From a virus, in the IMG/VR virus record IMGVR_UViG_3300036859_000137, positions 1-61,841 of that record: 61,841 nt of DNA. The stretch is one strand, 5' to 3'. The first letter of the stretch is position 1, and every line of letters begins with the position of its first letter. The notes under the pieces were generated by a model. The model saw nothing but the letters and a program-made list of their open reading frames with translations, was not told the origin of the DNA and did not search any database. Position numbers and translations under genes: made by a program. This document shows, piece after piece, positions 1 to 57,807 of this stretch.

Positions 1-603
1 ATCGACGACGACGACACCGCATCCCGAGACATGGCGATCCAGCTCCACGAGCAGGGCGGAGACGTCTACTGGACCCACGGGCCGCGCGGGACCCTGAACC
101 TGTCCCAGCTGTGGAACGAGTGCTACGGCATCGCCCGGTACGACATCCTCCAGCACTCGTGCGACGAGACGATCTACCGCACCGAGGAGTGGGATACGAA
201 GGTGATCGAGGCGTTCGAGGCGTGGCCGGACCGGGTTGGCCTCGTCTACGGCCGTGACGGGATCCATGACTCGAACCTGGCCACCCACGGGTTCCTGCAC
301 CGCCACTGGGTGGACGCCGTCGGCTACTTCGTGCCTCCCTACTTCAGCTCGGACTACAACGATCTCTGGCTCCATCAGGTGGCCCAGGGCATCGGCCGGT
401 TGCAATTCCTCCCGGACGTGTTCACCGAACACATGCACCCGGCCGTGGGGAAGGGACCGCTCGACCTCACCCATCAGGAGCGCCTCGCCCGGCACGGGCA
501 GGACAACGTGGATCAGCTCTGGAATCAGCTCTTCCCCCAGCGGCAGGAAGACATCCAGAAGCTGATCACCTACATCGGAGACTTCGAGACGGACCAGGCA
601 TGA
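1..603 (+). CDS. GT2-like glycosyltransferase, 5' end cut by window
   Basis: The frame is open from base 1, so this is the C-terminal ~200 residues of a longer protein. The first visible residues are IDDDDTASRD, a DXD-type metal and nucleotide-sugar site, which suggests a GT-A (family 2-like) transferase whose N-terminal Rossmann half lies outside the window. It ends inside an ATGA overlap with the next gene, so it is translationally coupled to the sugar operon. The ATG at 31 is internal and not the likely start. The family call rests mainly on the DDDD motif and the neighbourhood. Confidence 0.6.
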   Translation: MDDDDTASRDMAIQLHEQGGDVYWTHGPRGTLNLSQLWNECYGIARYDILQHSCDETIYRTEEWDTKVIEAFEAWPDRVGLVYGRDGIHDSNLATHGFLHRHWVDAVGYFVPPYFSSDYNDLWLHQVAQGIGRLQFLPDVFTEHMHPAVGKGPLDLTHQERLARHGQDNVDQLWNQLFPQRQEDIQKLITYIGDFETDQA

Positions 604-1499
604 GAGTACTGATCAGCGGAGCCGGTGGCTTCGTCGGCCCCCACCTCCGCAAGCTCCTGGAGAATCAAGGTCATCTCGTCATGGGGTGCACCCTGGCCGG
701 TTGCGACGTCCGTGACTTCGAGCAGGTCCGGCACATGATCTCGGAGTTCCAGCCTGACAAGATCTTTCACCTCGCTGCCGTCTCGTGGCCCGGGGAGTCA
801 CTGCGCAACCCCCGGCGGGTGTTCGAGGTCAACACCGGCGGGACGCTCAACGTCCTGGAAGCGGTCCGGACCACCGGCTCACACGCGAAGGTTCTGATCA
901 CCGGGACGTCCGAGGAGTACGGCTATGAGCGGCCGGACCCCAACGAGATCATCACCGAGACCTCCGTATGTCTGCCGACCACGCCCTACGGCGCGGCCAA
1001 GCTCGGGGCCACGGCAGCCGGGCAGGCATACGCGCGCCGGTACGGGATGCACGTCGTCTGCACGAGGGCGTGGAATCACACCGGCTGGGGACGTCAGGCC
1101 GTCAATGCCGAGTCGTCGTTCGCGCGCCGGATCGTGGCCGTGGAACAGGGACAGACCCGGTTCGTCTCGCACGGGGATCTTTCCGCGTGCCGCAACTTCA
1201 CTTCGGTCCGGGATGTGGTCAAGGCGTACTCACTGGTGATCGACGCCGATCCTGGGATCTACAACGTGTGCTCGGACTACAACATGCCCATGTCGGAGAT
1301 CATGGCCAAGCTCATGGCCCTGTCCCGGCTGGACGTGAACGAGATCTACCTGAAGGAAGATCCGAATCTTGTCCACAGGGATCATACCGTCTGGCCGGTC
1401 CCGTCCTATGACAAGATCACGATGGCTACCGGGTGGGTGCCGGAGACGTCCCTGAACTCCATGCTGTCCGACGTCATGAGCTACTGGAGGCATCAGTGA
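600..1499 (+). CDS. Rmd-like NAD(P)-dependent sugar reductase/epimerase (SDR)
   Basis: A 299-residue extended short-chain dehydrogenase acting on a nucleotide sugar. It has the dinucleotide-binding motif GAGGFVG (7-13), GTSEEYG (102-108) and the catalytic Y130-x3-K134 pair. NHTG at 159-162 and the ~300-residue length fit GDP-4-keto-6-deoxymannose reductase (Rmd) better than the longer GDP-mannose dehydratase. The ATG overlaps the upstream stop (ATGA). It would reduce a 4-keto-6-deoxy sugar; the substrate cannot be read from sequence. Epimerase or dehydratase activity is the main alternative. Confidence 0.82.
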   Translation: MRVLISGAGGFVGPHLRKLLENQGHLVMGCTLAGCDVRDFEQVRHMISEFQPDKIFHLAAVSWPGESLRNPRRVFEVNTGGTLNVLEAVRTTGSHAKVLITGTSEEYGYERPDPNEIITETSVCLPTTPYGAAKLGATAAGQAYARRYGMHVVCTRAWNHTGWGRQAVNAESSFARRIVAVEQGQTRFVSHGDLSACRNFTSVRDVVKAYSLVIDADPGIYNVCSDYNMPMSEIMAKLMALSRLDVNEIYLKEDPNLVHRDHTVWPVPSYDKITMATGWVPETSLNSMLSDVMSYWRHQ

Positions 1500-2704
1500 T
1501 CTGCCGCAGCTGTGGAAGCGATCATCTCGTGGACGTGATCGACCTCGGTCAGCACCGGCTGCCGGACTTCCCCCGGCCCGAGGACCATCGGCCGGACACC
1601 CCCACGTACCGGCTCCGTCTCGTGATCTGCCTGGACTGCACCCTGCTCCAGCTCGGGGAGACGACGCCGCGCGCCAAGCTCTACCACGACCGCTACGGTT
1701 TCCGGTCCGGCACCAACGAGGCGATCCGGCTTGATCTTCTGGAGATCGTCCAGTACGCCCGGATGGTCAAGCCCGGAATCAAGAGCTGGCTCGACATCGC
1801 GTGCAATGACGGCACCCTGCTCAGCAACGTCCCCCCGGAGATCCACCGGACCGGGATCGACCCGGTGACCCCGATCGCCAGGGAAGCGCGCCAGAACAAC
1901 CGCGCCGACCGGGTGATCTACAACTACTTCAGTGCGCACTACTTCCGGCCCCGGGAGTTCGACGTGATCACCTCGATTTCGATGTTCTACGACCTCGATG
2001 ATCCGAACCAGTTCGTCCACGAGGTGAAGCAGTGTCTCGCCCCGGGCGGCATATGGGTGATCCAGCAGAACTACGCCGGGGACATGCTCCGGTCCAACGC
2101 GATAGACAACGTGTGCCACGAGCACGTCACGTACTTCGCTCTGCTTCCACTCATGATCCTTCTGGAGCGTCACGGGCTGGAGATCAATGACGTCACATTC
2201 AGTTCGGTCAACGGGGGATGCATCCGCACTCTCGTGTCCAGGATCGGCGACCGGCCGGTGAGCGCGTCGGTGCAGGAGGCGTACGAGCGCGAGGTGATCA
2301 TGGGTCTCCACCGGCCCGGCGTCTGGACGTCGTGGGGGGAACAGGTCCGGCGGGAGCTGGATCTCACCCGGAGCTTCCTCGTGAACGCGAAGCACCAAGG
2401 CCAGCTGGTCTACCTGTACGGCGCGAGCACCCGGGGCGGGACCATTCTCCAGATGATCGACGCCGGGCCGGACCTGCTCCCGTACGCCGTGGAGCGCTCG
2501 CCCGCGAAGGTCGGAGCGGTCATGTCCGCGACCGGAATCCCGATCATCAGCGAGGAAGCCATGAGGCATGACCGGCCGAACTTCCTGCTCGTCTCCCCGT
2601 GGTTCTTCAAGAGCGTGTTCCTCCGGCGCGAGGCGGAGTATCTCCGCAAGGGCGGCCGTCTCGTGTTCCCGCTTCCGCATTTCGAGATTGCGAGCACGTC
2701 ATGA
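1496..2704 (+). CDS. Nucleotide-sugar C-methyltransferase (zinc type)
   Basis: 402 residues starting at GTG, which overlaps the previous TGA. The three-part layout matches NovU/TylCIII-like deoxysugar C-methyltransferases: an N-terminal zinc knuckle (Cys3, 6, 45, 48), a SAM fold with DIACNDGTLL (100-109) and the downstream signature CHEHVTYF, and a C-terminal domain containing YGASTRGGTI. Members add a methyl branch to a keto-deoxy sugar. Codons before 1496 in this frame lie inside the upstream gene, so the longer frame is rejected. With the Rmd-like reductase it implies a branched deoxysugar, which is rare in phages. Confidence 0.86.
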   Translation: MICRSCGSDHLVDVIDLGQHRLPDFPRPEDHRPDTPTYRLRLVICLDCTLLQLGETTPRAKLYHDRYGFRSGTNEAIRLDLLEIVQYARMVKPGIKSWLDIACNDGTLLSNVPPEIHRTGIDPVTPIAREARQNNRADRVIYNYFSAHYFRPREFDVITSISMFYDLDDPNQFVHEVKQCLAPGGIWVIQQNYAGDMLRSNAIDNVCHEHVTYFALLPLMILLERHGLEINDVTFSSVNGGCIRTLVSRIGDRPVSASVQEAYEREVIMGLHRPGVWTSWGEQVRRELDLTRSFLVNAKHQGQLVYLYGASTRGGTILQMIDAGPDLLPYAVERSPAKVGAVMSATGIPIISEEAMRHDRPNFLLVSPWFFKSVFLRREAEYLRKGGRLVFPLPHFEIASTS

Positions 2705-3495
2705 AGTGGAATGATCACGTGGAAGCCTGGTCCCGGCCGCCGGTGGACGACGTCGGATATCTCAGCTCAGAAGATCTGATGTCCATGGGAGACACCCAGC
2801 TGAACCTGACGATCATGCAAATGGCCCACATCCGTTACGGCGGCTGGAGGAACTACGGCGGGCTGTGGCGCGAGATGCTCCACCTCGACGACACCCACGG
2901 CAAGGATGTGCTCGACTTCGGATGCGGAGTCGGCATGGAAGCCCGGGAACTCCAGGAAGTGGGCAACTACGTCTCTCTCGCGGACATTTCCGAGGCGAAC
3001 CTCCGCCTGGCATATCGGGTACTCCGGCTCGGGGATCATGATCCGGAATCCATTGATCTCTACCGGGTGACCGATGAGCCGCCGTACATCACGGCCGAGC
3101 CCGGATCCTTCGATGTGATCCACTGCTCCGGCGTACTCCATCACATCCCGTGGGCCCGGGAGATCATGATCCGGTTCCACGAGATCCTCCGCCCCGGCGG
3201 AGAGGTCCGGCTCATGCTCTACAGCGACTACGGGTGGTGCCAGGCCACGGGTGACGAGGATCTCCCGCACTGGTCTGCCAACACCGCCTCGCTCCCGGGG
3301 TTCGAGCGCTTCGTGTCGTTCATGGACTCGGTCGGCACGTATGCCGACTGGTACAACCGGGACAAGCTGGAGATCAGGTTCGGTGATCTGTTCGACGTCA
3401 CCGACTTCGCGTATCTCACCGAAGATCTCCGCTTCTGTGCGGCCGTCCTCACCCGGAAAGATCATGCAGTGATCCTGGAAAGGCTGAAGTCATGA
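2701..3495 (+). CDS. Class I SAM-dependent methyltransferase
   Basis: 264 residues starting at the ATG that overlaps the previous stop (ATGA); codons upstream belong to another frame. Motif I is DFGCGVG (72-78), followed by FDVIHCSGVLHHIP and LRPGGEV, typical of small-molecule methyltransferases. No DNA-methylase motif (DPPY or NPPY) is visible. Its place inside the sugar operon suggests O-methylation of the sugar or of a nearby group. The substrate is unknown. Confidence 0.85.
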   Translation: MKWNDHVEAWSRPPVDDVGYLSSEDLMSMGDTQLNLTIMQMAHIRYGGWRNYGGLWREMLHLDDTHGKDVLDFGCGVGMEARELQEVGNYVSLADISEANLRLAYRVLRLGDHDPESIDLYRVTDEPPYITAEPGSFDVIHCSGVLHHIPWAREIMIRFHEILRPGGEVRLMLYSDYGWCQATGDEDLPHWSANTASLPGFERFVSFMDSVGTYADWYNRDKLEIRFGDLFDVTDFAYLTEDLRFCAAVLTRKDHAVILERLKS

Positions 3496-4760
3496 GCGAC
3501 GTCGGTGTCCTCGGACTGGGCAAGCTCGGGCTGATCATGGCCATGGTGCTGGACGTCCACGGGAATCACCGGGTCACCGGCTGCGATTTCTCCAGACGCC
3601 CCACGGACATCCTCACCGGCCAGGCTGATGCGGTGCCGAAGGAAGCGGACATTCTCCATCTGATCGCGAACAACCACCTGAACGTGATCAACGATCCGGC
3701 CTCCCTGGTGGCCAACGCAGATGTGATCTTCGTGGCCGTCCAGACGCCACACCCTCCGGCGTACGACGGAACCGTGCCGGTTCCGGAGGAGACGAAGGAC
3801 TTCGATTACAGCCATCTGATCAGTGCCGTCCGGCAGCTCTCCCGCGCGGCCGACCAGCAGTGCAAGTTCATCACCATCGCGGTCGTCTCCACGGTGCTGC
3901 CGGGAACCTGTGACCGTCTGCTGCGTCCTCTCCTCAGTTCTCAGGTCAAGCTCGTCTACACCCCGTCACTGATCGCACTGGGGAAGGTGGCGGACGATCT
4001 GCTCAACCCGGAGTTCGTGATCCTCGGTACGGACAGCTACGACGATGCGCTGCCGGTCCGGCAGATCTACGCCTCGCTCCACTCGCGGCCGGTGCTGATG
4101 ATGTCCATCCCGTCGGCCGAGCTGACCAAGGTGGCGTACAACACGTATACGTCGATGAAGATCGTTTTCGCGAACACGATGCTGGAGATCGCGGAGAAGA
4201 CAGGGGCCGATGCCGATGCGGTGACCGATGCTCTGTCCCAGGCCACGGTCAATCTCATGTCCCCGAAGTACCTGCGGGGAGGTATGGGCGGGGGAGGGTA
4301 CTGCCATCCCCGGGACGTGATCGCCATGTCCTATCTCGCCGACCGGCTCGATCTTTCCTCGGACCTGTTCGGCTTCCTGGCTCATGCCCGCGAGGCTCAG
4401 TCCATGTGGCTGGCGTCCGTGGCTCAGGATATGCACTATCTGACTGATCTCCCCGTGGTGATCCTCGGCAACGCCTACCGGCCGAACAGCGATCTTGCCG
4501 GAGGATCGGCCGCACTCCTGCTCTTCACCCAGCTCTCCCAGTTCGTCCCGTTGTTGCTCATGATCGATCCGTACACCGGCGATCAGACATGGGACGAGGT
4601 GGAGAAGATCACTGACAGTCCGTGCGTGTTCGTGATCGGCTGTGCACACCGGGAGTTCGCCCGGCTGGAGTTCGAGCCCGGCTCCGTGGTAATTGATCCG
4701 TCCGGCATCATCCCGGACCAGCCTGGGGTCACCGTGATCCGACTCGGGAGGAAGCTGTGA
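3492..4760 (+). CDS. UDP-glucose/GDP-mannose dehydrogenase family enzyme
   Basis: 422 residues, close to the usual ~430-440. The Rossmann motif GLGKLG is at 8-13, the conserved lysine in ELTKVAYNTYT is K213, and the active-site cysteine is C271 in GGGGYCHPRD. Family members oxidise a hexose nucleotide to a uronic acid in two NAD-dependent steps. The C-terminal signature is divergent (GNAYRPNSDLAGGS, with Arg where Lys is common), so the substrate may differ. ATGA overlap with the methyltransferase upstream. Confidence 0.85.
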   Translation: MSDVGVLGLGKLGLIMAMVLDVHGNHRVTGCDFSRRPTDILTGQADAVPKEADILHLIANNHLNVINDPASLVANADVIFVAVQTPHPPAYDGTVPVPEETKDFDYSHLISAVRQLSRAADQQCKFITIAVVSTVLPGTCDRLLRPLLSSQVKLVYTPSLIALGKVADDLLNPEFVILGTDSYDDALPVRQIYASLHSRPVLMMSIPSAELTKVAYNTYTSMKIVFANTMLEIAEKTGADADAVTDALSQATVNLMSPKYLRGGMGGGGYCHPRDVIAMSYLADRLDLSSDLFGFLAHAREAQSMWLASVAQDMHYLTDLPVVILGNAYRPNSDLAGGSAALLLFTQLSQFVPLLLMIDPYTGDQTWDEVEKITDSPCVFVIGCAHREFARLEFEPGSVVIDPSGIIPDQPGVTVIRLGRKL

Positions 4761-4786
4761 CCGCGAACATATACGGAGGGGCGATC

Positions 4787-5389
4787 ATGAACTGGCGCGG
4801 TCCCTACCGGCCCGGGGTGACCGTCGTGATGCCGGTCCATCTGCCCCGGCTGACGAACGGGGTATTCGACCGGGCGCTCCAGTCGATCAGGTGGCAAGAG
4901 CATCCGGTGGACGCGATCAGTATCGCCGTGGACACCACGCACGCCGGGGCGGCAGCGACCCGGAACGAGGCCCTGGAAGCCGTGACGACCGAGTGGACGG
5001 CTTTCCTCGACTCGGACGACCAACTCCGCCCGCACCACATTGGATCTCTTCTCACGGCCGCACAGCGCTCCGGCGCGGACGTGATCTATCCGTGGTTCAC
5101 GATCACTCCGGCCGGAGCCGATCCGTGGCCGGAGCGCGAGGGACAGCCGTTCGACCGGGAGCTGCTCAAGACCACGAACTACATCCCGGTGACCACCCTC
5201 GTGCGCACGAAGCTGATCAAGAAAGTCGGAGGCTTCCGGCCGAAGGGTCCCCCGGAAAATCCCTGCGATGACTGGGGGACATGGGATGCACTGCTGGAGG
5301 AGGGGGCAGAGTTCTACCACCTGAACGAGCGGACATGGTTCTGGTGGTGGTGGGCCGGTAACACCTCCGGACGGGGTGATGTCTGGTGA
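4787..5389 (+). CDS. GT2 family glycosyltransferase
   Basis: 200 residues: a short GT-A domain with VTVVMPVH near the N-terminus, GAAATRN (54-60) and the metal-binding DSDD (75-78). A tryptophan-rich tail (FWWWWAG) follows. A GTG at 4757 overlaps the upstream stop, but ATG 4787 has a strong ribosome site (GGAGGG, 4775-4780) and is preferred. It shares GAAATRN and the RT-K-GGF region with the enzyme at 5601, so the two are paralogues. The acceptor is unknown; virion protein, wall polymer or DNA are possible. Confidence 0.83.
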   Translation: MNWRGPYRPGVTVVMPVHLPRLTNGVFDRALQSIRWQEHPVDAISIAVDTTHAGAAATRNEALEAVTTEWTAFLDSDDQLRPHHIGSLLTAAQRSGADVIYPWFTITPAGADPWPEREGQPFDRELLKTTNYIPVTTLVRTKLIKKVGGFRPKGPPENPCDDWGTWDALLEEGAEFYHLNERTWFWWWWAGNTSGRGDVW

Positions 5390-5592
5390 GGCGGACCATG
5401 CTCCGGTGGACGACGCCGGAGCGAGCGAAGAAGAGGATCAGGCGAGTGATCACCGCCGCGAGCTTCCATCAGACCATCAGGGACTTCTACAGCTCGGGGA
5501 TCCTGGACTGGACCGGTCACATTGGTCTGATCAACGTCACGGAACCCTCGTGCGGGTGCTCGGTGTGCCAGCACGCACGCTTCACGATGTAA
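5386..5592 (+). CDS. Small basic Cys-rich protein
   Basis: 68 residues from GTG, overlapping the previous TGA. The N-terminal half is strongly basic (KKRIRR) and the C-terminus has CGCSVC, a possible metal-binding cluster. It sits between two glycosyltransferase genes with no spacing. I do not recognise the family. Tight coupling and the cysteine cluster make it a likely real gene. Confidence 0.6.
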   Translation: MRRTMLRWTTPERAKKRIRRVITAASFHQTIRDFYSSGILDWTGHIGLINVTEPSCGCSVCQHARFTM

Positions 5593-5600
5593 GGAAGATC

Positions 5601-6263
5601 ATGGGAGAAGCCAAACGCCGGGGGCGCAAGCTCAGTGACCGGCATCTGACCGTGGCGGTCTGTATCCCCACCGTGCCGGGCCGCGAGGACATGCTCATGC
5701 GGGCAGAGCTGTCCGTGATGCGGCAGGACCGCCAGCCGGATCAGTTCCTCGTGGAGGTGGACAAGGACCGTACCGGTGCAGCGGCCACCCGGAACCGGCT
5801 GCTGGAGCGCGTCGAGTCCGACGTGATCGCGTGGCTGGACGATGACGACTGGCTCAAGCAGAACCACCTCAAGGCGTGCATGCGGGTGATCGAGAACAGT
5901 TTCACCGTGGATCTCGTCTATCCCCGTCCCCACATGGTCAATGGGCGTGACCCGACGGCCGTCACTCATCAGGGCCGGTTTCCGGTGTCTCCCTGGGGGC
6001 TGAGGTTCACTCAGGAGATGGCCGCGCACATCATGCAGGTCGGATCGTTCATCCCGATCACTCACCTCGTGAGGACGGAGAGTGTGCGCCGGATCGGTGG
6101 CTTCCCCGAGGGCCGGACGCTGGAGAACGGCCGGTATCAGGGAGAGGACGAGCGGTACCTCCAGCTCCTCTTGGAGCAGGGTGCGGTATTCGAACACCTC
6201 GACGAGCGCACGTGGTACTGGTACGTCAACCCGAAGTCGACCGCAGGGAAACCGGGATCATGA
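5601..6263 (+). CDS. GT2 family glycosyltransferase
   Basis: 220 residues from ATG 5601, which has AAGGA just upstream and GATC fused to the start. GT-A features: VAVCIPTVPGRED (18-30), GAAATRN (59-65) and the acidic DDDD site (80-83). It is a paralogue of the 4787 gene and slightly longer, with an acidic EDERYLQLLLEQ near the end. The longer in-frame extension to 5376 overlaps two other genes and is rejected. It ends in an ATGA overlap. Confidence 0.84.
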   Translation: MGEAKRRGRKLSDRHLTVAVCIPTVPGREDMLMRAELSVMRQDRQPDQFLVEVDKDRTGAAATRNRLLERVESDVIAWLDDDDWLKQNHLKACMRVIENSFTVDLVYPRPHMVNGRDPTAVTHQGRFPVSPWGLRFTQEMAAHIMQVGSFIPITHLVRTESVRRIGGFPEGRTLENGRYQGEDERYLQLLLEQGAVFEHLDERTWYWYVNPKSTAGKPGS

Positions 6264-6511
6264 CCAGAGATCAAGTCTTCACCGAGGTGGAAATCAAGCA
6301 CGAGCGCCGGACAGAAGCTGTCCGCCGGACAATCGTCCATGCCGTGGACATCCTGTCCGCGCGGGAACATCTCCGTCAGGGTGTGTCCGCCCTTCCCGGA
6401 GTGTCCGACGACCCGGACACTGTGGCGGACATCATGGACTTCGTCGATCACTTCGTCATGCGGAAGGAGCAGCTCGACGAGGAGGCCGGACGCTTCGTCC
6501 GAAAGCTCTGA
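6260..6511 (+). CDS. Small helical protein, unknown
   Basis: 83 residues, charged and predicted all-helical (e.g. DIMDFVDHFVMRKEQLDEE). ATGA overlap with the glycosyltransferase makes it the last gene of the sugar operon, before the terminator at 6538. Its DNA starts the dense TGTCC/GGACA tract described in the findings. No family recognised. Confidence 0.65.
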   Translation: MTRDQVFTEVEIKHERRTEAVRRTIVHAVDILSAREHLRQGVSALPGVSDDPDTVADIMDFVDHFVMRKEQLDEEAGRFVRKL

Positions 6512-6620: not shown

Positions 6621-7460
6621 ATGGACACTGACACGAGCCGGACACGACGCCTTGTCCGGTGGCTGAAGGACAAGATCGAAAAGCGTCAGAACGACAAGGA
6701 CGATCACGACCCGTGGTGGGTCACGCTCATGCTCGACGTCGGCCGACCGGCCGTCGCGATCATGATTCTGACGATGTGCGCGCCCGGCGAGCACTACCTG
6801 ATGCTGGAGGCGCGTTTCTCCGACCCCTTCGCATGGCTGGGACCGGGCACGCTGACCGCGTACGCGGGCATAGCCGCCGTCACGGCCACGAAGAGGCCCA
6901 AGGGGTCACCCGGCCACAAGACGGCCGTCCTGGGTGCCGTTCTGTCGATCGCCATCGCCATGGCAGCTCAGCCGATAGCCCACCTCTGGGGCGTGCAGGG
7001 GATCACGACCGAACGGGTATGGCTGATCATCGTCGTGTCCTCCGTCCCGTCCGCCGTGTTCGGACACCTGCTCCACATGGGGGCCGCGCCAACGATGAAA
7101 CGCCGGACACCGAGGGCGGACAGGAAGCGTGACAAGGCTCCGGACAAGCCCGCCCCGTCATGGGTGACAGAGGGCAAGGTTCACGCACAGCTGTCCAGGG
7201 CGTCTGTGTCCGGCGCCGGACAGACCGGCGGACAGGAGCCGGACACAGACAGGGACAGCATGACGGACACGGACACGAGGGGTGTCCGCCGGATGTCCGG
7301 GGGCTCGATGAAGTCCTTCGCCCTGTCAAAGATCATGGACAACCCCGCTGTCACAGACACCGAGCTGACGGACGCAATCAAGGAATCGTTCGGACAGGAC
7401 AGCAAGGCGAACAGCATCTACGTAGCGATCAAGCGAGCACGCCGGGAGGCAGCGGCATGA
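6621..7460 (+). CDS. Four-TM membrane protein, Spd/DUF2637-like
   Basis: 279 residues. Four hydrophobic segments (about 38-53, 74-91, 101-123, 131-153) are followed by a charged, disordered linker and a small helical C-terminus that looks like a winged-helix fragment. This layout resembles the plasmid-spread membrane proteins next to tra genes of Streptomyces plasmids. It overlaps the translocase gene by ATGA. The start has AAGGG and GATCATG. A role as membrane partner of the translocase is inference from position. Confidence 0.65.
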   Translation: MDTDTSRTRRLVRWLKDKIEKRQNDKDDHDPWWVTLMLDVGRPAVAIMILTMCAPGEHYLMLEARFSDPFAWLGPGTLTAYAGIAAVTATKRPKGSPGHKTAVLGAVLSIAIAMAAQPIAHLWGVQGITTERVWLIIVVSSVPSAVFGHLLHMGAAPTMKRRTPRADRKRDKAPDKPAPSWVTEGKVHAQLSRASVSGAGQTGGQEPDTDRDSMTDTDTRGVRRMSGGSMKSFALSKIMDNPAVTDTELTDAIKESFGQDSKANSIYVAIKRARREAAA

Positions 7461-9415
7461 GTAAGGGCGGGAACGGCACGATGAACGAGGAGTCGGTGAA
7501 GATCACCCGGCTGCGGCACATGCCGCTGCGGTACCGGGCTCAGCCCTGGCTCACCCCGTGGGCGATCATGTTCACGGTCTTTGTGATCAGCTTCATCACG
7601 CACCACTGGGCGAACGGACCGGTGGCTCAGATCTTCCTCACGCTCATGGGCCCTGGCCTGGGCATTGTCACCTGGATCACCTGGGGGCGACGCCACGAGC
7701 ATGCCCAGGTCGCGGCCACCGCGTTCGTCGTCGGCCTGGGGCTGTGGCTGGCGCTCGCGACCGGCCTCGGGCCGCTGACCAGCGCGATGCTCTGGGGGCT
7801 GATCTTCGGTGGCTCGTTCCTGTGCCTGAGCTGGAACATCCGGTATGCCGGGATCACCCCGACCAACAGCCACGACAAGGTGAAGACGGGCCCGGTCGAC
7901 TCGATCGCCGAGGTCAAGGGGCTGAAAAACACGGTGACGAGCAAGGTCAAGCGGGTTGCCGACAAGGCGGGGGAGCGCGTCGAGATCTTCCTGACCCACC
8001 CCGGCGGCCGGAACACGACCAAGGATGTCCGCAAGCGCAAGGACAACATTGCCGGACTTCACGGGGTCGGACCGGACAGTATCCGGGTGTCCGAAGTGGC
8101 CGGACGAGGTGACAAGACGAAGGTCACCGTCCGGCTGGCCAATCCAACCACGGACATCGTTCCGTATCCCGGTCTGTCCATGCCCGGCAAGTCCCTCACG
8201 GCCGGACCGCTGCGGACCGGTGTCCGGGAGGACGGGGCACCCTCTGTCCACTGGATCACCGGAAGTGACGAGGAGTCCCGGGCCGCCTCGTCCACGCTGT
8301 ACACCGGCATGACAGGAGCCGGAAAGACGAGGGCGTACATCCTGTCACTGCTGGAGCAGGTCAGCCGGACAGACTGCGCCGTCCCTGTCATCGGTGACCC
8401 GGAGAAGTTCGCCATGTCCTTTGGGATGATCATGGACTATGTCCCGATTGCGGCGGACGGGCCGGAGCAGGTCGACCAGCTGATCAGGAACCTCCCGGAG
8501 GCCATGCGCTACCGGGCCGCGCTGCTGGGCTCCCTCGGCTACTACGACGGATGGGTGCCGGAGTGCTGGACCAAGCACGGCATCCCGGTGCAGCCGATCC
8601 ATGTGGAGGAGGCGGGCGGGTACCTCGCAGGAAACCCGGAGTTCTTCAAGGCCCTGACCTTGTGCCGGGCCCTGGGACTGCCCATGTCGATCTCTATCCA
8701 CATGGCGAAGTACAACCAGCTCCCCACCGAGTCGCGCGGCCAGTTCGGCAACAGCTTCGCGTTCGGTGTGAAGAAGATCGCGGAGGCCGCGTTCGCCCTC
8801 ACCGCCGAGACGATCCGCGCTGGTGGGGACCCCTCACGGTGGGCGAACAACTACCCCGGCCGGAACATCGCGGAGGTCACCGGCGTGCCGTCCGACGAGT
8901 GGCCCATGACGCACCGGGCCTTCAAGATCACGACCCCGGAGATCGTCGAGACCTTCGACGCCTGCCGCAACCGGGACCCCGGTATCGCGGTGTGCGACGA
9001 AGGAACGTTCGACCGGCTGAGCAGGGGGATCAACCGGCCGCAGCGGATGATCGTTTCCGTGCCGGACTGGAAGGGGGTCGACACCACCCTGACCGTTGAT
9101 CTTTCCGACTACCGGCCGCCGGTGGAGCCCGAGCCGGTCCGGGAATTCTCGATGATCAAGGGCGGCGCCGTGCCGACCGAGCCGGAGATCAACAACGAGG
9201 CTCAAGAGCTGGTCAGCCTCCGGATCGAAGAGCTTCGGGACTCCGGGGTCACCGAGTTGACCAAGGACGATTTCCATGATCTTGAGCTTCCCCGCGACCG
9301 GACGTGGATCTTTCACGAGCTGGCGCGGCGGGTCAAAATCGGGGAGCTGCGCCGGTTCCCCGGCAAGGAAGCCCGGTACGAGATCGTTCCGGCTGCCAAG
9401 AGCGAAGAGGGATGA
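7457..9415 (+). CDS. TraB/FtsK-like DNA translocase
   Basis: 652 residues. Four membrane segments (about 33-50, 57-75, 86-103, 108-126), a linker, then a RecA-type motor with Walker A GMTGAGKT (284-291) and Walker B-like HVEEAGG (382-388). The C-terminal ~65 residues (LTKDDFHDLELPRD onward) look like a winged-helix DNA-reading domain. This is the architecture of the single-protein, double-strand DNA pump of Streptomyces conjugative plasmids and of FtsK. The in-frame extension to 7160 lies inside the upstream gene and is rejected; ATG 7457 overlaps its stop. Confidence 0.85.
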   Translation: MSKGGNGTMNEESVKITRLRHMPLRYRAQPWLTPWAIMFTVFVISFITHHWANGPVAQIFLTLMGPGLGIVTWITWGRRHEHAQVAATAFVVGLGLWLALATGLGPLTSAMLWGLIFGGSFLCLSWNIRYAGITPTNSHDKVKTGPVDSIAEVKGLKNTVTSKVKRVADKAGERVEIFLTHPGGRNTTKDVRKRKDNIAGLHGVGPDSIRVSEVAGRGDKTKVTVRLANPTTDIVPYPGLSMPGKSLTAGPLRTGVREDGAPSVHWITGSDEESRAASSTLYTGMTGAGKTRAYILSLLEQVSRTDCAVPVIGDPEKFAMSFGMIMDYVPIAADGPEQVDQLIRNLPEAMRYRAALLGSLGYYDGWVPECWTKHGIPVQPIHVEEAGGYLAGNPEFFKALTLCRALGLPMSISIHMAKYNQLPTESRGQFGNSFAFGVKKIAEAAFALTAETIRAGGDPSRWANNYPGRNIAEVTGVPSDEWPMTHRAFKITTPEIVETFDACRNRDPGIAVCDEGTFDRLSRGINRPQRMIVSVPDWKGVDTTLTVDLSDYRPPVEPEPVREFSMIKGGAVPTEPEINNEAQELVSLRIEELRDSGVTELTKDDFHDLELPRDRTWIFHELARRVKIGELRRFPGKEARYEIVPAAKSEEG

Positions 9416-11911: not shown

Positions 11912-12136
11912 ATGAGTTACACGCGCCGCGCGTATGTCGACCTTGCCGCGATCCTCGCGAGCGAGGTCGACGAGACCGAGCAGTCGGAGTTCTTGACCGA
12001 GGCCGAGGTTCACCTCGCTGTCGAGACGCTTCAGCTGGTCGGCGAGAAGATCGCCGATCTGTTCGAAAAGGACAACCCCCGGATGTTCGACCGGGAGCTG
12101 TTCATGAGGAACGCCAAGATCGACACAACGGACTGA
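11912..12136 (+). CDS. 74-residue acidic helical protein
   Basis: Acidic and helical (EVDETEQSEFLTEAEVHLA). It starts 2 bases after the previous stop; the ribosome site GGAGG lies in the preceding gene. No family recognised. Confidence 0.65.
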   Translation: MSYTRRAYVDLAAILASEVDETEQSEFLTEAEVHLAVETLQLVGEKIADLFEKDNPRMFDRELFMRNAKIDTTD

Positions 12137-12146
12137 GGAGCCGACC

Positions 12147-12401
12147 ATGAACAAGATCCAAGCTGTACTGGCCAACTACGACGACAAGGGCGGCCCCGGT
12201 GCCGCTCTCCCGGAGGGCGATGTCCTGATCCTCCGGGAGTACCTGATCCTGAAGCTCGAAGCGTCCGGGGTCCCGATCGACGAGGCAGCGAAGATCGTCG
12301 CCGCGTTCCACTGGGGATCTTGGTCCGAGGGCTGGGAGACCGGCTATGCGTCGGCGAAGAGCTTCTACGGTGAGCGTTTCTCCCTGGGGAGCCGGTCATG
12401 A
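12147..12401 (+). CDS. 84-residue small protein
   Basis: Helical protein with an aromatic C-terminus (WGSWSEGWETGYASAKSFYG). The repeated cassette (GACTGAGGAGCCGACCATG) overlaps the previous stop. It overlaps the next gene by ATGA. No family recognised. Confidence 0.65.
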   Translation: MNKIQAVLANYDDKGGPGAALPEGDVLILREYLILKLEASGVPIDEAAKIVAAFHWGSWSEGWETGYASAKSFYGERFSLGSRS

Positions 12402-12760
12402 GCGAACACACGTTCCAGACCGCATTCGCCTTGATCAGCTCTCTCAGGGTCGGCGACCGGGTCCGCGTGCAGCGCGCCGGAGAGCGGGCATACGAGATGA
12501 CCGTCTCCCGTGGGCCGTCCCGGTCCGACGGCAACTGGGGATCACCCGAGAGCCTTCACGTGACGGTGACCTTCGGACCGGGCCGGTACGCCACCGAGGT
12601 CGGTGTAGACGATCTCTGGAGGCGCCGGAAGGGTCACGGATGGATCGGGGGCGGGACCACGATCGAAAAGATCGAGGAGCCCGACGAGGAGGTTCTGAAA
12701 GATCTTGACGTGATGTTCAGCCATCTGGCTGACGATCATGGTGAAGATGAGCCCGAGTGA
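12398..12760 (+). CDS. 120-residue protein, small beta-barrel-like
   Basis: The VGDRVRVQRAGERAYEM and SLHVTVTFGPGRY segments suggest a small beta-barrel (possibly SH3-like), followed by an acidic tail. ATGA-coupled to the gene before. Function unknown. Confidence 0.65.
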   Translation: MSEHTFQTAFALISSLRVGDRVRVQRAGERAYEMTVSRGPSRSDGNWGSPESLHVTVTFGPGRYATEVGVDDLWRRRKGHGWIGGGTTIEKIEEPDEEVLKDLDVMFSHLADDHGEDEPE

Positions 12761-15879: not shown

Positions 15880-15950
15880 GCCCCCGTTGTGTAACGGATG
15901 CATGCCGCCCCCTCAAGGCGGAGGTGCCGGATCGTGACCGGCCGGGGGTA
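15880..15950 (+). tRNA. tRNA-Glu (CTC), divergent
   Basis: 71 bases. Acceptor GCCCCCG/CGGGGGT, D-arm GTGT/GCAT with G-G in the loop, anticodon stem CCGCC/GGCGG with loop CCCTCAA (anticodon CTC) and T-stem GCCGG/CCGGC. Oddities: base 33 is C instead of the near-universal T, and the T-loop is ATCGTGA rather than TTCGAAT. CCA is not encoded. Confidence 0.75.
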
Positions 15951-15988
15951 CGCAAGGAAAGATCACCACCGGACGAAGGGATCAAAGC

Positions 15989-18344: not shown

Positions 18345-18418
18345 GCCCCGCTAGCTCAACCGGCCAGAGCAGCTGTTTCGTAATCAGCAGGTTGGGGGTT
18401 CGAATCCCCCGTGGGGCT
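18345..18418 (+). tRNA. tRNA-Thr (CGT)
   Basis: 74 bases. Acceptor GCCCCGC/GTGGGGC, D-arm with AGCTCAA...GAGC, anticodon loop TTCGTAA (anticodon CGT) and T-arm GGGGG/TTCGAAT/CCCCC. The anticodon stem has one T-T mismatch at 31-39. CCA is not encoded. It reads ACG, common in a high-G+C phage. Confidence 0.88.
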
Positions 18419-18451
18419 CTTCACATCATCCGGAACGAGGAAAGGTTGATC

Positions 18452-21938: not shown

Positions 21939-22147
21939 ACCTGGCGGAACTCAATGATCACATCGCCCGCGTCCGCCATGATCTCGAAGCTAAAAAGGAT
22001 GATCTTGACCGACTGCTTCTCGCCGACCCGGCGACCGGGATGATGGTCCGCTTCCAGATCGAATGTCTTGAGCCCCGGCTGCGGGAGCTGGAGCGCCAGG
22101 CACTGAGGACGACCAAGGAAGCCGACGCTCATACGGTCGCTGTCTAA
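21935..22147 (+). CDS. 70-residue coiled-coil protein
   Basis: Charged coiled coil (VRHDLEAKKDDLDRLLL and LEPRLRELERQAL). ATGA-coupled to whiB, last + gene before the strand switch; its stop overlaps the convergent gene by 4 bases. It may partner the WhiB protein. Confidence 0.65.
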   Translation: MNLAELNDHIARVRHDLEAKKDDLDRLLLADPATGMMVRFQIECLEPRLRELERQALRTTKEADAHTVAV

Positions 22148-23274
22148 GCGATCACTACAGGCGCCCGGTCCCTGCGCCTCTCAAGATCGTAAGCATGATG
22201 CCAACATTCCAGCCACCGCCACGCGTTCGGCTCCAGCCGGAAGCCGTCGGCCACCTCGCGCGCTGCTGCCGCCCGCTCCTGCCGGAGCGCCGGTGAGTCC
22301 TGGAGCTTCTTCAGCTCCTGATACCACCGGCGCGGGGTGTCCGCCAGAGCACCGATCACGAGACCGCTCTTCACCCCTCGCTGGTACAGACGCGAGTACT
22401 CCGCCCGGGGAGAGGCCACCCACGGGACCCCGAGCGCGGACATCTCCAGCGGCTTGAGCCAGCTCTTGCACCGGTTGAACCTCGTGTCCGCCAGGGGAGC
22501 CACGCCGATGCCGAGACCGGCCACCGCGCGCGGCCACTCGGTGAGGGCGATCGGGAGATCATGGCCAGACGGGTCCCTGGCAAGACCGAATGCGTACCCG
22601 CATCCAGTCGGGTCACCGATGACCTGAAAGGCGCCAGGATCGGCGCACAGCCGCGCCATGGCCCCGCCTATGGCCGACGGGTCATCCGGGTGCGAGGCGA
22701 GCGACGCTGGCCAGCCGATCCGATCACTGTCCACATGATCCACACCGTAGTAGAACGAGGGCAGGTGATTGAAGATCACTTTCCCTTGACCCTGGCGGGC
22801 GTAGACGTCGAGCAGGGCCGGAGTGGAGACCGTCACGAGCGTCGATTCCCGGCACGCAGCCACGAGGTTGTGCCAGCTGTTCCGGGAGAACTCCCCGCTC
22901 TTCCGGTCGACCAGCCACTGATTCCTCGGGTGGTAGCCCTTGTACGCCGGGTTGCTCGGATGGATCGACGTGAGATCGTCGTCCACATCGGTGACGACCG
23001 CGATCCCGTTCTTGCGCATGAGCGGGATCGCCTCGGCCATGAACTGATGAGTGATCCTCTGGAGCACCACCACATCGGTGTCAAGATCCAGGACTTCCTC
23101 GCAGTGCGAGTCCTTGTCACGGCGCCGGTTGCCGGAGATCCGCAGCCGGATGTCACGCTTCTCCGGCGGACGGAGATCGATATCGTGCCCCTGGCGCTTG
23201 AGTTCCTCGGCCGCCCAGATGAGCCGGAACGCTCCGCACCCGGAGCTGTCCGCCGGATAGATCGTGATCTTCAC
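22144..23274 (-). CDS. GT-B (GT4-like) glycosyltransferase
   Basis: 376 residues from GTG overlapping the upstream stop. The N-terminal domain has DSSGCGAFRLIWAAEEL and TDVDDDL; the C-terminal domain has PTGCGYAFG, GIGVAPLADTRFN and CKSWLKPLEMSALGVP, the typical nucleotide-sugar end motif. It stands apart from the other sugar genes, beside the lysin and tail genes, so it may decorate tail proteins. Acceptor unproven. Confidence 0.8.
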   Translation of the reverse strand: MKITIYPADSSGCGAFRLIWAAEELKRQGHDIDLRPPEKRDIRLRISGNRRRDKDSHCEEVLDLDTDVVVLQRITHQFMAEAIPLMRKNGIAVVTDVDDDLTSIHPSNPAYKGYHPRNQWLVDRKSGEFSRNSWHNLVAACRESTLVTVSTPALLDVYARQGQGKVIFNHLPSFYYGVDHVDSDRIGWPASLASHPDDPSAIGGAMARLCADPGAFQVIGDPTGCGYAFGLARDPSGHDLPIALTEWPRAVAGLGIGVAPLADTRFNRCKSWLKPLEMSALGVPWVASPRAEYSRLYQRGVKSGLVIGALADTPRRWYQELKKLQDSPALRQERAAAAREVADGFRLEPNAWRWLECWHHAYDLERRRDRAPVVIA

Positions 23275-36069: not shown

Positions 36070-37842
36070 TCAGTTCGTCGCATTGATGTTGATCTGGACG
36101 CCAATGTACGGCGGAGCACCGGACAGAGTGGCACCCGCCGGGAACGTCGTCGGCATGGCCGACGTCGCTACACCCGTGGCCTTCCATGCATTGGCCATAG
36201 CTGCGGCTGAGGTGTACGGGTTCCCGGACGCATCGAGGTTGGGAAGCCCCACCCCGTTCCCGTCCCCGTTCAGGGTCACCCATGTCTGCGTTGCTCCGGC
36301 CGTCACAGTGAGCAAACAGATCCAGTAGAGCCCTGGATCCATGACCGTTTGAAAAGATCCGTTCCCGGAGGTCGGAGACATAATCAATGTATTCGCAGCC
36401 GTGCCGGTACTGAGGGGACCACTTGCGGCCGTCGGCTCGGAGATGATCTCTCCGGGGTAACCAGTCCAGCCGACATCGTCATAGATTCCCCACCGGATCG
36501 TGGAGGCGCTTCCGCCGGTCGCACCCGTCTTGATCGCAAGCCGGTTCCAGAATTCCGTGGCCTCCGTCACCAGCATGGGGAGAGCCCAGCACGTACCGGT
36601 CGGAGAAGTGGCGGTGACCGTCATCTCTGTGCCGGTCGTGGCGTAGCTGGTCGTGTGCCAACTGCCGGACTGCCGGGGTTTGCGCAGACCTCCCGCGCGG
36701 GGTGAGGGGACGTTGAAGTTCCGGGTCTGGTACGAGCTGGTCGGCCGGAGGTTCTTCCGCGCCGCCTGGATCGCGTCCACGATCGCAGCCGCGCCGAACT
36801 CGTTGGGATGCAGACCGTCCGAGAACAAGAGCGTGGCGTCTTTGTTGATGATCCCGTCCAGGTCGGCGATCTGGACCATGGAGTCGTACTCGGACTGAAG
36901 CGAGGCGAGCCGGGAGTTCAGGTCGAGGCAGTCCTGATCACGGGATGCCTCGGTACCGGTCCAGCTGGGGTAATTACTGGTGTAGCCGGTCGCGGTGAGC
37001 CGGGCCACATTGCACACGATGATCGGGGGAGGGTTCTTCGATTCCAGCCCCCAGTAATCGAGCATGACCGCTCCGCCACCATCCAAGGTGTTGACGGTCC
37101 CGGTGATCGTCTGCCCGGCGTTGGCGGAGGTGAGCCCGGTGAACCGCTTCGTCACCGGGCAGTGGGACACGGCTGAGGACGGAAGAATGTTGCTCGTGCT
37201 GGTCGTTCCGCTCACGCCGGTCGTACCGCCCCAGGTGACAATACCGCCGGAGACCCCGCCCGCACCGACCAGGGTCACGGCCACGACTTCGCCGTTGTAG
37301 TCGGACGGGAGGGTGAGCGTGAAGTTCGCGTTCGTGGTCGACGTGCACCAGTGCGCCGAGTCGCCCGAGGTGTACCCAACAGCCGCAACCGAACCGAAGC
37401 CCGCACCGTACGACGTCCTTGTGCCGACCTGGAAACCGTTCTCATAGATCACGGCCATACGCCAGCGAGAGATCATGGTCCGCATGGCGTGCTGGTACGC
37501 ATCCTTGAACTGCGTAGTGAACCCGGCCAGCCCGAGATCGTTGATCCCGTAGCAGAACAGCGCCGCACCGCCGTCGGCCACATACGGCCCACCGCGCTGC
37601 GGCTTCTTCGAGCCCTTGAAGAACCGGGCGAAACCGCCGGTGGAGTACCCCTCGATGCAGGCCCGGGATCCGTTGACGGCCCAGTTGCGCTTGTTGGTCG
37701 TCTCGGTGTCCATGGATGCGAAGAACAGCGCATCGGCCCGGCCGGTCTGATAGAAGGTGCCGAATGCATACTGCATGTACGAGTGCCCGAAGATGTTCCA
37801 GAAGTCCGGCACCTGATACGACGGGGGCGGCATGATCGGCAT
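36070..37842 (-). CDS. SGNH/GDSL hydrolase on virion (tail or head decoration)
   Basis: 590 residues. The three SGNH blocks are visible: GHSYM (Ser21), GINDLG (Asn101) and DGLHPNEFG (near 357); the usual first-block Asp is His. The domain is interrupted by Ig-like/Gly-rich insertions, and the C-terminal ~190 residues are a beta-rich fold. Such esterases deacetylate surface polysaccharides, so it could modify host capsule or a glycan carried by the phage. It is placed among head-tail genes, an unusual site for a fibre. Confidence 0.72.
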   Translation of the reverse strand: MPIMPPPSYQVPDFWNIFGHSYMQYAFGTFYQTGRADALFFASMDTETTNKRNWAVNGSRACIEGYSTGGFARFFKGSKKPQRGGPYVADGGAALFCYGINDLGLAGFTTQFKDAYQHAMRTMISRWRMAVIYENGFQVGTRTSYGAGFGSVAAVGYTSGDSAHWCTSTTNANFTLTLPSDYNGEVVAVTLVGAGGVSGGIVTWGGTTGVSGTTSTSNILPSSAVSHCPVTKRFTGLTSANAGQTITGTVNTLDGGGAVMLDYWGLESKNPPPIIVCNVARLTATGYTSNYPSWTGTEASRDQDCLDLNSRLASLQSEYDSMVQIADLDGIINKDATLLFSDGLHPNEFGAAAIVDAIQAARKNLRPTSSYQTRNFNVPSPRAGGLRKPRQSGSWHTTSYATTGTEMTVTATSPTGTCWALPMLVTEATEFWNRLAIKTGATGGSASTIRWGIYDDVGWTGYPGEIISEPTAASGPLSTGTAANTLIMSPTSGNGSFQTVMDPGLYWICLLTVTAGATQTWVTLNGDGNGVGLPNLDASGNPYTSAAAMANAWKATGVATSAMPTTFPAGATLSGAPPYIGVQININATN

Positions 37843-46085: not shown

Positions 46086-49000
46086 TCATTCACTCCCCTC
46101 GTTCATCATCTGCTGGGCCAGATCGTCCATGACGATCTTATAGGCAGCCTTCCGGTCCATCGGCTCCGGAGGTGCAGGGTGGACGTGTGCCGTGGACAGA
46201 CGGCCGGACGCGATCAGTGCCTGAACCTGTCCACCAGCCACCCGAGCCTTCATGCGCGGCACCACAAATCCGCCGACGTTGACTCCGAGGAGTCCGACGA
46301 GGCGGTGCTGACCACCGATCCGGCGCCAGTCCCCGGAGACCTCACCCGAAGCACGGAGTTCGTGCACGAGCATCGGGTCTGCGTTCGGCCGGATCGCTCC
46401 AGCCACCCAGATGCCGGTGCGGTCCGAGCCGACCGCGACGTCAGCGATGGCGTTTCCGGTGTTCTCGTAATGCTCCTTCGCCGGACCGGCCCCTACGTAG
46501 AGATCCGCGTGATTCGTGGTCACGGTGATCTGCCCGACCGTCACGACCTTGCCGCTGTCGGTGACCAGCTCGCCGGTGGCGAAGTACGGGAAGTCGTCCT
46601 CACGAGGCGGCTGCGTGCACACATCCATGAACCCGATGTGGCAGGCTCCCCACTGCGCCGCGTGGCCGAACACCCGGCCGTCCTCGGTCACGTGGATCGT
46701 GGTGGGCTGGCTCAGCTGGGGGTTCTCGAACCACTCCGCCGGGGGACGCCACTCCGGCCCGCCGTGAGCGACGAGCGTCGCCCTTAGCCGGTCCTTCGGC
46801 GGGATGCTCTTCGCCCTCGTGGCAGCGATCGACGACTGAACCTCGGCGTACTCCTCCAGCGTCGGAGCGCCACCGGCCACGACCGCGCCGGAATCGTCCG
46901 TGAGAGCGATGTACGCCTCGGCGAAAGCAGGGATGTCACAGAGCGTCGCGGCGCGGATCCGACCACCGTGATAGATCACCTTCTCCGGCTGGGCGAAGAG
47001 CATCGCCAGCGGGTCGGCCTCCTCGTCGGCGCCCGCGTTCTCCGGCCACACGAACTCCACATCGGCGTTCCCGATCGAGTCGGCGTCGATGCTCACGCCA
47101 CGGAGGAACTTCTCCTGGACGCGCCGGTGAGCCTCCGCGCCATCCTCGGAGCCGAGGTCGAACACACCCTTGCCCATGATCTTCTGGCCGTCACGCCAGA
47201 TCGAATCAATCCGGCCCACCGTCACAGCCGTCGTGTGGGGCTCCCCGCCGTGGGAATCTTCCTTGTTCCAGCGGAGCAGCACCTCACCGGGCTCGATGTT
47301 CTCCGGCCACGTCAGGGCGCCACCGGCGAACTCGCGGCCGTCTCCAGTCACCTGATCCTCGACTGCGAGGACGCCCTCCCACGGGGCTGTGTCGCCGGAT
47401 GCCTTCATGGGCCCGCATTCGCCGGTGGCGGGGTCCTTCATCATGTTCGGGGGGCACCCGCCATCGTCCGCGAACTCGACCGGGGCACCCCAGATGATCA
47501 TGTCATAGTCGTTCTCCAGCCCGAAGGCTGCCACTTCGTCCTGCGTGGCCTTCAGGTTCGAGGGGACCGGCTTCCCCAGCTTGTTGTAATGCCCACGAAG
47601 GTGGGACTTCGCCCGTGCCACCGCTCCGGAATCACGACCGGACAGGGAGCTGACTCGACCGGCCGCCGCGCTCAGACCGTCCTGATTCAGTGCACCGCCA
47701 GGCTCATGATGGGGCAGGAAACAGCGTTCCTTCACTGATCCCTCACCGGGATCACACGCAGCCGTGGCCGACTTGTACTGCTCGTCGGTGAACCGGGAAG
47801 CAGATCCGTCCCATGCCGCCTGAACGATATCTGTGATCGAGAGATGGGCCGCCATGCCGGTCGTTCCCTCGTCGCAGTCCTCGCCCTCACAGTCGTCGGT
47901 CGCGAGGGTGGCGCCTTCGTAATCGTCGTTCTCGTGAAGCCGCTTGTCCTTCTTCGTGCCGGGGTTCGGCTTGCCGCCCAGCTCTTCGGTCACGGTTGCC
48001 ACGGCGTTGCCTCCTTCAGCCGCATACAGGGCGGCCAGTTGCTTGTCTGCCTTCGCCTCGGTCGCGTGGCATCCCTCGACTTCACCCGTGGCATCCTTGA
48101 TCACTGCCCACGGTTTCGATGATCCGCACTTGCTGCTCTTCGCCACATGCCACGGCACAGTGACCGCCTTCATTGACGCGCTGCCGACCTCGGCCGAGCC
48201 CCAGACGGCGATCATTGTGCCACGGCACCGCCCACCGCCCGCACAGTTGGCGTATCCGCCACCGCTGGACGGGTACGCCTCGGCCGCCTGGGACAGCGAG
48301 GTGAACTCGGTTCCGTCGATCGCCCGGCAGGCTGCGCACGTGGCCTTGTCGAGCACCTCACTGGCCATGTAGAGCCCTGGGGGAGCCACCCGCAGGACCG
48401 CCATACGTCCGGTGTTCTGTGCCGACGACATGGCCGAACCGATGTAGTCCCGGGGCGTCCGGAGCGAAAGATCTTTCAGGTCCCGGTCCACCCGTTCGGC
48501 CACCTGGCGCCCGGACCGGCCGGAGGTGACGAAGGTGAGCGCCCGGCGTCCGGCCGACTGCACGAGGTTGAGCCCGAGGGCTCGCGCGGTGACCCGGGCC
48601 ACGGACCGGATGACCTCTCCGGCCGTGGACGCCGTCAGCTCCTCAGACAGGTCCCACGGAGGGATCTCGATTCCCTGGTGCTCTGCCTCGCGCTGCATCT
48701 CTTTGCCGGAGGTGATCGCGTACCGGGTCATGTGATCGGTGAGCAGAACGGTCAGATGATCAGTGTCCACGGTGAGGTACCCGAGCCGGTCCAGGTCCCC
48801 GTCATCGACGATCTTCGCGATCTGATCACGGAGACTGGCGCGCTGGTCTGCCTCGGTCCGCGCGTAATCGTTCAGAGTCGCGCCGACCGCGTCATCCCAC
48901 TGCTTATCAATCATCGCGAAGTCTGCCCGCGAGGCGATCTCGAAGTCGGTGAGCTTCCGGCGCATGATCCCGGCCGCCGTCACGGCGCCGGTGAGCGGGA

Positions 49001-57580: not shown

Positions 57581-57807
57581 GGGGAGATCCTCACGGAAAA
57601 GGCCAGCTGATACTGAAGTGAAGTGATCAGTTTCGCGGTGTCTTCGGGAGTGATGATGACCTGACGCCACGTCTCCTCGTTGTGCAGGGCGAGGCGGATC
57701 TCCCCGGTACCGACGTTCACCGCGACGTCGATCTTCTCCTCGGGATGATCAGGATCTTCGCCCAGGCCGGTCACTTCGAGATCTAGATCACTGCTCCACA
57801 TGCTCAT
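57577..57807 (-). CDS. 76-residue hypothetical protein
   Basis: Acidic, beta/alpha (KIDVAVNVGTGEIRLAL). ATG 57807 overlaps the upstream stop as ATGA and is preferred to GTG 57819. Coupled to the sugar gene; function unknown. Confidence 0.6.

Follow-up and report, generated by a model that had tools for sequence, protein, structure and literature searches.

A phage operon with a putative pathway for a C-methyl-branched sugar and a possible role in virion glycosylation

The operon and its genes

The IMG/VR virus record IMGVR_UViG_3300036859_000137 (linear, 61,841 bases, GC 64%), referred to here over its whole length as the window, begins with a tight plus-strand operon of seven enzyme genes and two small open reading frames (ORFs) at positions 1-6511 (Table 1). 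An earlier note on this DNA had described a compact operon with these enzymes. All of the genes are present and each matches the family stated, although four of the starts had to be corrected. On the basis of the genes, their families, catalytic residues, selection, co-inheritance, neighbourhoods and a tree of the C-methyltransferase, we consider the chances somewhat better than even that this is a phage-borne glycosylation module, which makes a C-methyl-branched sugar together with a sugar acid, the glycan being most likely carried by a virion protein.

Table 1. Features of the window discussed in the text. CMT, C-methyltransferase; GDP, guanosine diphosphate; GT, glycosyltransferase; NDP, nucleoside diphosphate; SAM, S-adenosylmethionine; SDR, short-chain dehydrogenase/reductase; UDP, uridine diphosphate.
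Feature	Position	Strand	Description
GTa	1-603	+	GT-A fold, GT2-like glycosyltransferase; 5' end beyond window edge
SDR1	600-1499	+	Extended SDR, RMD/GMD group
CMT	1496-2704	+	NDP-hexose C-methyltransferase, TylCIII/NovU/TcaB9/MtmC type
MT2	2701-3495	+	SAM-dependent methyltransferase
UGD	3492-4760	+	UDP-glucose/GDP-mannose 6-dehydrogenase family
GTb	4757-5389	+	GT2 glycosyltransferase, DxD-type motif FLDSDD
64-aa ORF	5398-5592	+	CxCxxC; occupies the space between GTb and GTc; no assigned function
GTc	5601-6263	+	GT2 glycosyltransferase, WLDDDDW
83-aa ORF	6260-6511	+	Final operon gene; ATGA overlap with GTc; no assigned function
tRNA-Glu(ctc)	15880-15951	+	
tRNA-Thr(cgt)	18345-18419	+	
GTB22	22144-23274	-	GT-B (GT4-like) glycosyltransferase outside the operon
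DHY58	57804-58853	-	RmlB-like 4,6-dehydratase in a separate operon at the far end of the window

Six junctions in the operon are 4 bp start/stop overlaps (ATGA or GTGA). Because of the overlaps at the junctions, the starts of four longest ORFs were moved, to 1496 for CMT (GTG, in a GTGA overlap; previously 1433), 2701 for MT2 (2599), 5601 for GTc (MGEAKRRG; 5376) and 6260 for the last ORF (6212). Comparison with the nearest relative, locus L003, by the method of Nei and Gojobori (dS 0.6-1.1) gave ratios of non-synonymous to synonymous change (dN/dS) of 0.18, 0.26, 0.31, 0.50, 0.24, 0.28 and 0.12 for GTa, SDR1, CMT, MT2, UGD, GTb and GTc, and all seven enzymes are therefore under purifying selection. 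The whole gene order of the window is kept in L003 and in a second relative, L010. The overlaps, the dN/dS values of 0.12-0.50 and this synteny together show that the operon is not a chance arrangement. The two small ORFs also have counterparts in L003: the 64-aa ORF is 52% identical over 65 columns to the ORF at the equivalent position, and the 83-aa ORF is 71% identical to its counterpart. In L003 an ORF that by eye resembles an HNH endonuclease (12076-12666) lies between GTb and GTc, and is not found in the window.

The virus is a tailed phage, as shown by window genes for a portal, major head protein, head-tail adaptor, tape measure, TerL and lysins. Phages of Gordonia, Microbacterium and Mycobacterium, and one cyanophage, have head proteins 26-34% identical to its own. 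The head genes are actinophage-like, and the virus probably infects soil actinobacteria. Its TerL is 53% identical to that of locus L177. A search of the 61,841 bases for end repeats that would close the genome found none, and neither the cassette nor a 25-kb structural region gave a megablast match among 50,697 phage records. All the virus records compared may be fragments.

Recurrence of the module

An alignment search with SDR1 found 42 loci, in 15 of which CMT lies directly downstream; the same pair occurs in one Micromonospora prophage. UGD is present in 8 of the 15 and MT2 in 7, accompanied by homologues of GTa, GTb, GTc and GTB22 in varying order. The prophage (L090, in Micromonospora sp. 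NBRC 107566) has a GTB22-like gene, a GTa-like gene, SDR1 (47% identical) and CMT (49%), followed by TerL, the portal and a head morphogenesis protein; actinobacterial hosts are therefore indicated. Judged by gene content and order, SDR1, CMT and their associated genes are a real, recurrent module. It could be argued that these are passenger genes taken from hosts and without organised function, given how frequent nucleotide-sugar genes are in metaviromes, but with purifying selection, and with adjacency maintained at 41-80% identity in many phages, we give this very little credence.

An uncultured 642-kb phage (LR756502.1, 452403-458127) has, inside 6 kb, genes that resemble CMT, UGD (38%) and MT2, and the gene combination may thus extend to jumbo phages.

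The C-methyltransferase, second methyltransferase and 6-dehydrogenase

Searches of Pfam, PHROG and the PDB bore out the family calls with strong statistics. CMT matches Methyltransf_14 (1.9e-35) and Methyltransf_13 (1.4e-13), both over the curated cut-offs, and also Methyltransf_23. Its nearest PDB entries are MtmC (4rv9, 2.7e-39) and then TcaB9, and it has the three-domain architecture of sugar C-methyltransferases. The four zinc-binding cysteines (C3, C6, C45 and C48), the SAM motif (D100-I...N-D-G-T) and Tyr67, Glu209 and His210 (Tyr76, Glu224 and His225 of TcaB9) are invariant in 15 orthologues. Against the main reading, two other active-site residues of TcaB9 are not conserved, His181 being Asp in CMT and Tyr222 being Cys. 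The residues compared were checked in PDB sequences. The earlier note considered a C-methyltransferase unusual in such a cassette. This holds among isolates, where the 50,697 phage records contain 6 matches, none in an actinophage, but not among metaviromes, where 328 relatives were found among the IMG/VR stretches that match its patterns.

MT2 matches Methyltransf_23 (9.8e-15) and Methyltransf_12 (1e-14), with weak PDB matches that include a D-glucose O-methyltransferase (6uv6, 1.7e-4). UGD matches PF00984 (6.5e-19) and PF03721 (2.8e-18), while its C-terminal nucleotide-binding domain PF03720 scores 18 bits against a cut-off of 30, and TIGR03026 scores 169.5 against 189.8; by these matches it is a divergent relative of the UDP-glucose/GDP-mannose dehydrogenases. 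Since the catalytic Cys271, Lys213, Asn217 and Asp275 are retained, and are invariant in 6 orthologues, its product is likely to be a uronic acid donor, derived from UDP-glucose or GDP-mannose. MT2 and UGD travel together in relatives, and MT2 may methylate the UGD-derived sugar.

SDR1: reductase or 4,6-dehydratase

The earlier note called SDR1 an Rmd-like reductase. It matches PF16363 (1.4e-47), and RMD is indeed its nearest relative in the PDB (2pk3, 1.8e-44, followed by 6x3b). Its residues, however, are of the type found in GDP-mannose 4,6-dehydratase (GMD). SDR1 has T-S-E (GTSEEYG), YxxxK and NHTGWGR, the last with an Arg at the position of the GMD Arg. This position is Arg in the GMDs of the PDB and Gln in both RMDs, and the RMD pattern of 2pk3 (S-S-E, with Gln at the position of GMD Arg185) is not present in SDR1. 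Arg185 is a key residue of GMD, and the residues compared were checked in PDB sequences.

The genomic context points the same way. Among 80 CMT loci of IMG/VR, a GMD-type SDR, recognised by motif, lies within about 3 kb in 38 and SDR1 in 8, and no locus has both. (Typing by motif misses the SDR1 of L002, L003 and L004, which a second analysis shows, and the count of 8 draws on both.) No GMD was found in 13 phage records that bear SDR1, nor in the Micromonospora strain that carries prophage L090, whereas four other actinobacterial genomes with a free-standing CMT do have GMD, at 412-416 bits. Because of this mutual exclusion, the absence of GMD from host and phage records, and the GMD-type residues, we propose that SDR1 may have taken over the GMD step, in which case the Rmd-like reductase of the earlier note would be the 4,6-dehydratase. 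A bifunctional viral GMD has been described in the chlorovirus PBCV-1 (PMC7019647).

Several observations weigh against this proposal. Overall SDR1 is nearest to RMD. It reads SGAGGFVG and scores only 77.8 bits against the GMD model, for which the cut-off is 415, and the SDR tree gives a fork that does not separate SDR1 between RMD and GMD. In some orthologues the Arg is replaced by His or Gln, so that SDR1 would at most work like a GMD.

The nucleotide sugar

The neighbours of CMT and its tree make the GDP-mannose (GMD) branch the most likely source of the sugar. SDR1-linked CMTs are nested among GMD-linked ones, with MtmC and TcaB9 outside on long branches. At 4 of 8 loci tested (L021, L032, L043 and L053) the GMD next to CMT exceeds the curated cut-off; in the other four (L008, L012, L015 and L025) the GMD model is the best-scoring one but under the cut-off. 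The nearest CMTs outside phages, in Actinomadura and Micromonospora okii, are 53-55% identical and have GMD downstream. In Actinomadura (L086 and L088), an ORF that looks NUDIX-like by eye lies 5' of CMT and GMD, in a small bacterial cluster.

The alternative is a deoxythymidine diphosphate (dTDP) route, in which RmlB, either DHY58 or a host enzyme, would make dTDP-4-keto-6-deoxyglucose, CMT would methylate C3, and SDR1 would be a plain 4-ketoreductase, still providing a branched sugar for the virion. The structurally solved CMTs, MtmC and TcaB9, are enzymes of dTDP-sugars, and RMD is the nearest PDB relative of SDR1. The host of L090 has RmlB (423 bits) and lacks GMD, and an RmlB-like gene occurs in L010 as well as in the window, so that this route is a fair objection to GDP-mannose. 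DHY58 itself is close to RmlB (1g1a, 7.2e-42) with T-D-E and YxxxK intact, and the earlier note had included it in the pathway. It is, however, distant from the module and in another operon, and a close homologue was found in only one of 12 other CMT-bearing phage records (L010, 61% identical), with none in the 92.9-kb contig of L003. Being unlinked and so rarely shared, and with CMT in the context of the GMD branch, DHY58 is probably not part of the module. Together with the GMD-linked clade of CMT and the mutual exclusion of SDR1 and GMD, this makes the dTDP route rather unlikely, though we take it seriously.

A further gene of the DHY58 operon (60657-61280, minus strand, 207 residues) has a 48% identical homologue directly 5' of GTa in L010 (5913-6464), and may in this way connect the two operons.

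Glycosyltransferases and the acceptor

The three GTs of the operon, one of them cut by the window edge, and the distant GT-B enzyme were all confirmed by family, profile or fold matches. GTa has no match in Pfam but matches a GT family of PHROG (phrog_14945, 3e-26). It is about 31 residues shorter at its 5' end than its homologue in L010, and the AlphaFold2 model of that full-length homologue has a GT-A fold (predicted local distance difference test score, pLDDT, 94.1), with WrtF fucosyltransferase, SpsA and RmlT as the best PDB matches. GTb matches PF00535 (1.8e-11) and phrog_14775 (3.3e-31); GTc matches PF00535 (1.3e-7) and is 87% identical to its L003 counterpart. GTB22 matches phrog_7162 (7.6e-28) and is modelled as GT-B with a mean pLDDT of 80, though well in only one of five models; its fold matches are MshA, the methylmannose polysaccharide mannosyltransferase ManT, and PimA. 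Since its homologues lie within the module in L011, L184, L185, L172 and prophage L090, GTB22 is likely to be a partner of the operon.

The position of the module in related phages bears on the acceptor. CMT is two genes after the major head protein in L026; the module precedes the tape measure in L005 and L006, follows a tape-measure-like gene and large downstream ORFs in L004 and L013, and is upstream of TerL in L090. No obvious hydrophobic or membrane segment was found in GTa, GTb, GTc or GTB22; no flippase, polymerase or lipid-carrier transferase was recognised among the window proteins scanned, which left out some small ORFs; and no PF00303 protein (thymidylate synthase/dCMP hydroxymethylase) was found in the window or 12 relatives, themselves possibly fragments. 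For these reasons we infer that a virion protein is the likeliest acceptor. The argument from position is weaker for this phage, as the module does not adjoin head or tail genes in the window, L003 or L010.

Two other acceptors can be considered. The sugars could be placed on the host wall, to exclude other phages or change the receptor. The SDR1-CMT pair of L090 is indeed in a prophage, and in a study of groundwater phages the nucleotide-sugar genes of phages are taken to modify the cell surface (PMC12911398), but GTs that lack a hydrophobic segment, the want of export enzymes among the proteins scanned, and a module often set among head and tail genes make this unlikely. Alternatively the GTs could attach the sugar to modified bases of DNA, as has been described for GTs of metagenomic phages (Pyle et al. 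2024, cited in PMC12619734). The lack of PF00303, the hydroxymethylase family of T4-like glucosylated-hydroxymethylcytosine modification, in records that may be fragments and in a search that covers this one base chemistry, makes hypermodification of DNA more doubtful still.

Proposed pathway and comparison with known systems

The claim of the earlier note, a methyl-branched deoxysugar pathway with GTs, remains the best reading, the catalytic residues being conserved. On this reading we infer the substrate, step order, C3 position, product, acceptor and benefit as follows. SDR1, standing where GMD stands in related loci, would carry out 4,6-dehydration of a nucleotide sugar of the host, for which GDP-mannose is the best candidate, and CMT would use SAM to add a methyl group at C3. 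Reduction of the 4-keto group, by SDR1 or the C-terminal domain of CMT, would then give a 6-deoxy sugar with a methyl branch at C3. UGD would provide a uronic acid as second donor, to which MT2 would probably add an O-methyl group. The four GTs, working in the cytoplasm, would build a short glycan whose likeliest carrier is a head or tail protein; there it could shield the virion from recognition or alter adsorption.

We also put forward, tentatively and as a possibility short of a probability, that SDR1 represents a novel kind of GDP-mannose 4,6-dehydratase, which may include a built-in reductase; that it arose within the RMD group and displaced GMD beside CMT in an actinophage lineage, freeing these phages from hosts that lack GMD; and that a glycan of C-methyl-branched sugar and methylated uronic acid coats the virion. 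The literature searched reports no glycan of this class from a phage.

Glycosylation cassettes are known in viruses, but no paper on a phage pathway for a C-methyl-branched sugar was found in the open-access literature searched, even though CMT is common in metaviromes. The closest arrangement is in an isolated Synechococcus phage, DSL-LC02 (OR032571), which has in order GMD, CMT, GDP-fucose synthase, GT, GT4, FkbM methyltransferase and GT. A CMT of the same family is thus beside an extended SDR, several GTs and another methyltransferase; it differs in having GMD and fucose synthase, and the stretch shown lacks a uronic-acid dehydrogenase. This CMT is annotated merely as a methyltransferase, and no study of the cluster was found. 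Its gene order follows the steps of the GDP-L-virenose pathway put forward for Coxiella burnetii, an in silico prediction in which an NDP-4-keto-6-deoxyhexose undergoes TylCIII-type C3 methylation and then reduction (PMC3539893). That is a sugar of bacterial lipopolysaccharide and the pathway uses GMD and GMER. Coxiella CBU_0691 was considered as a functional anchor and dropped, since it is a prediction only.

The sugar C-methyltransferases TcaB9, MtmC and TylCIII share with CMT the three domains, zinc-binding cysteines, SAM motif and Glu-His pair; TcaB9 and MtmC differ in being distant in the tree, and TcaB9 in the two replaced residues noted above. PBCV-1 glycosylates its own capsid with a viral GMD and GTs (PMC7019647). 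The resemblance to the present system lies in virus-encoded nucleotide-sugar enzymes that use GDP-mannose as starting material, along with GTs and a sugar methyltransferase, but PBCV-1 is a eukaryotic virus with sugar O-methylation and no C-methyl branch.

Virion glycosylation in the mycobacteriophages Che8, Corndog and Myrna, which are tailed actinophages with their own GTs, has been reported (Freeman 2023, cited in PMC12363180). The earlier note had referred to virion glycosylation in mycobacteriophages, but tblastn of GTa, GTc and GTB22 gave no mycobacteriophage match, and the GTs match those of Streptomyces and Arthrobacter phages instead. A GT cluster of Arthrobacter phage Mimi (gp173, 176 and 177) contains homologues of GTB22, GTc and GTa, and in that of Streptomyces phage Zuko (gp106-108) a GTc homologue adjoins a methyltransferase and another GT. 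Unlike the window, neither has SDR1, CMT or UGD annotated in the stretch shown, and neither phage has a CMT match.

If the proposal is right, phages make rare sugars that are otherwise associated mainly with antibiotics and with a small number of surface glycans of bacteria, and by a compact route, and the Micromonospora prophage L090 would be a testable case for the role of virion sugars.

Other features of the window

Directly 3' of the operon is a gene for a 751-residue protein (7160-9415, plus strand) that matches phrog_24831, of unknown function, and judged by eye is FtsK/Tra-like; it also adjoins the module in L003, L010 and L002. The remaining observations concern the minus strand. The 1177-residue product of 46086-49619 has no Pfam match, but has an N-terminal RNA-ligase-like match (phrog_2659, residues 24-211) and a C-terminal part resembling a portal or head protease, and looks like a head protein fused to a possible enzyme domain. 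Among the tail genes, a 590-residue protein (36070-37842) has a weak match, under the curated cut-off, to GDSL lipase/acylhydrolase (4.6e-6). Finally, 59863-60660 encodes a papain-family (C1) cysteine protease, a relative of which adjoins TerL in L177.

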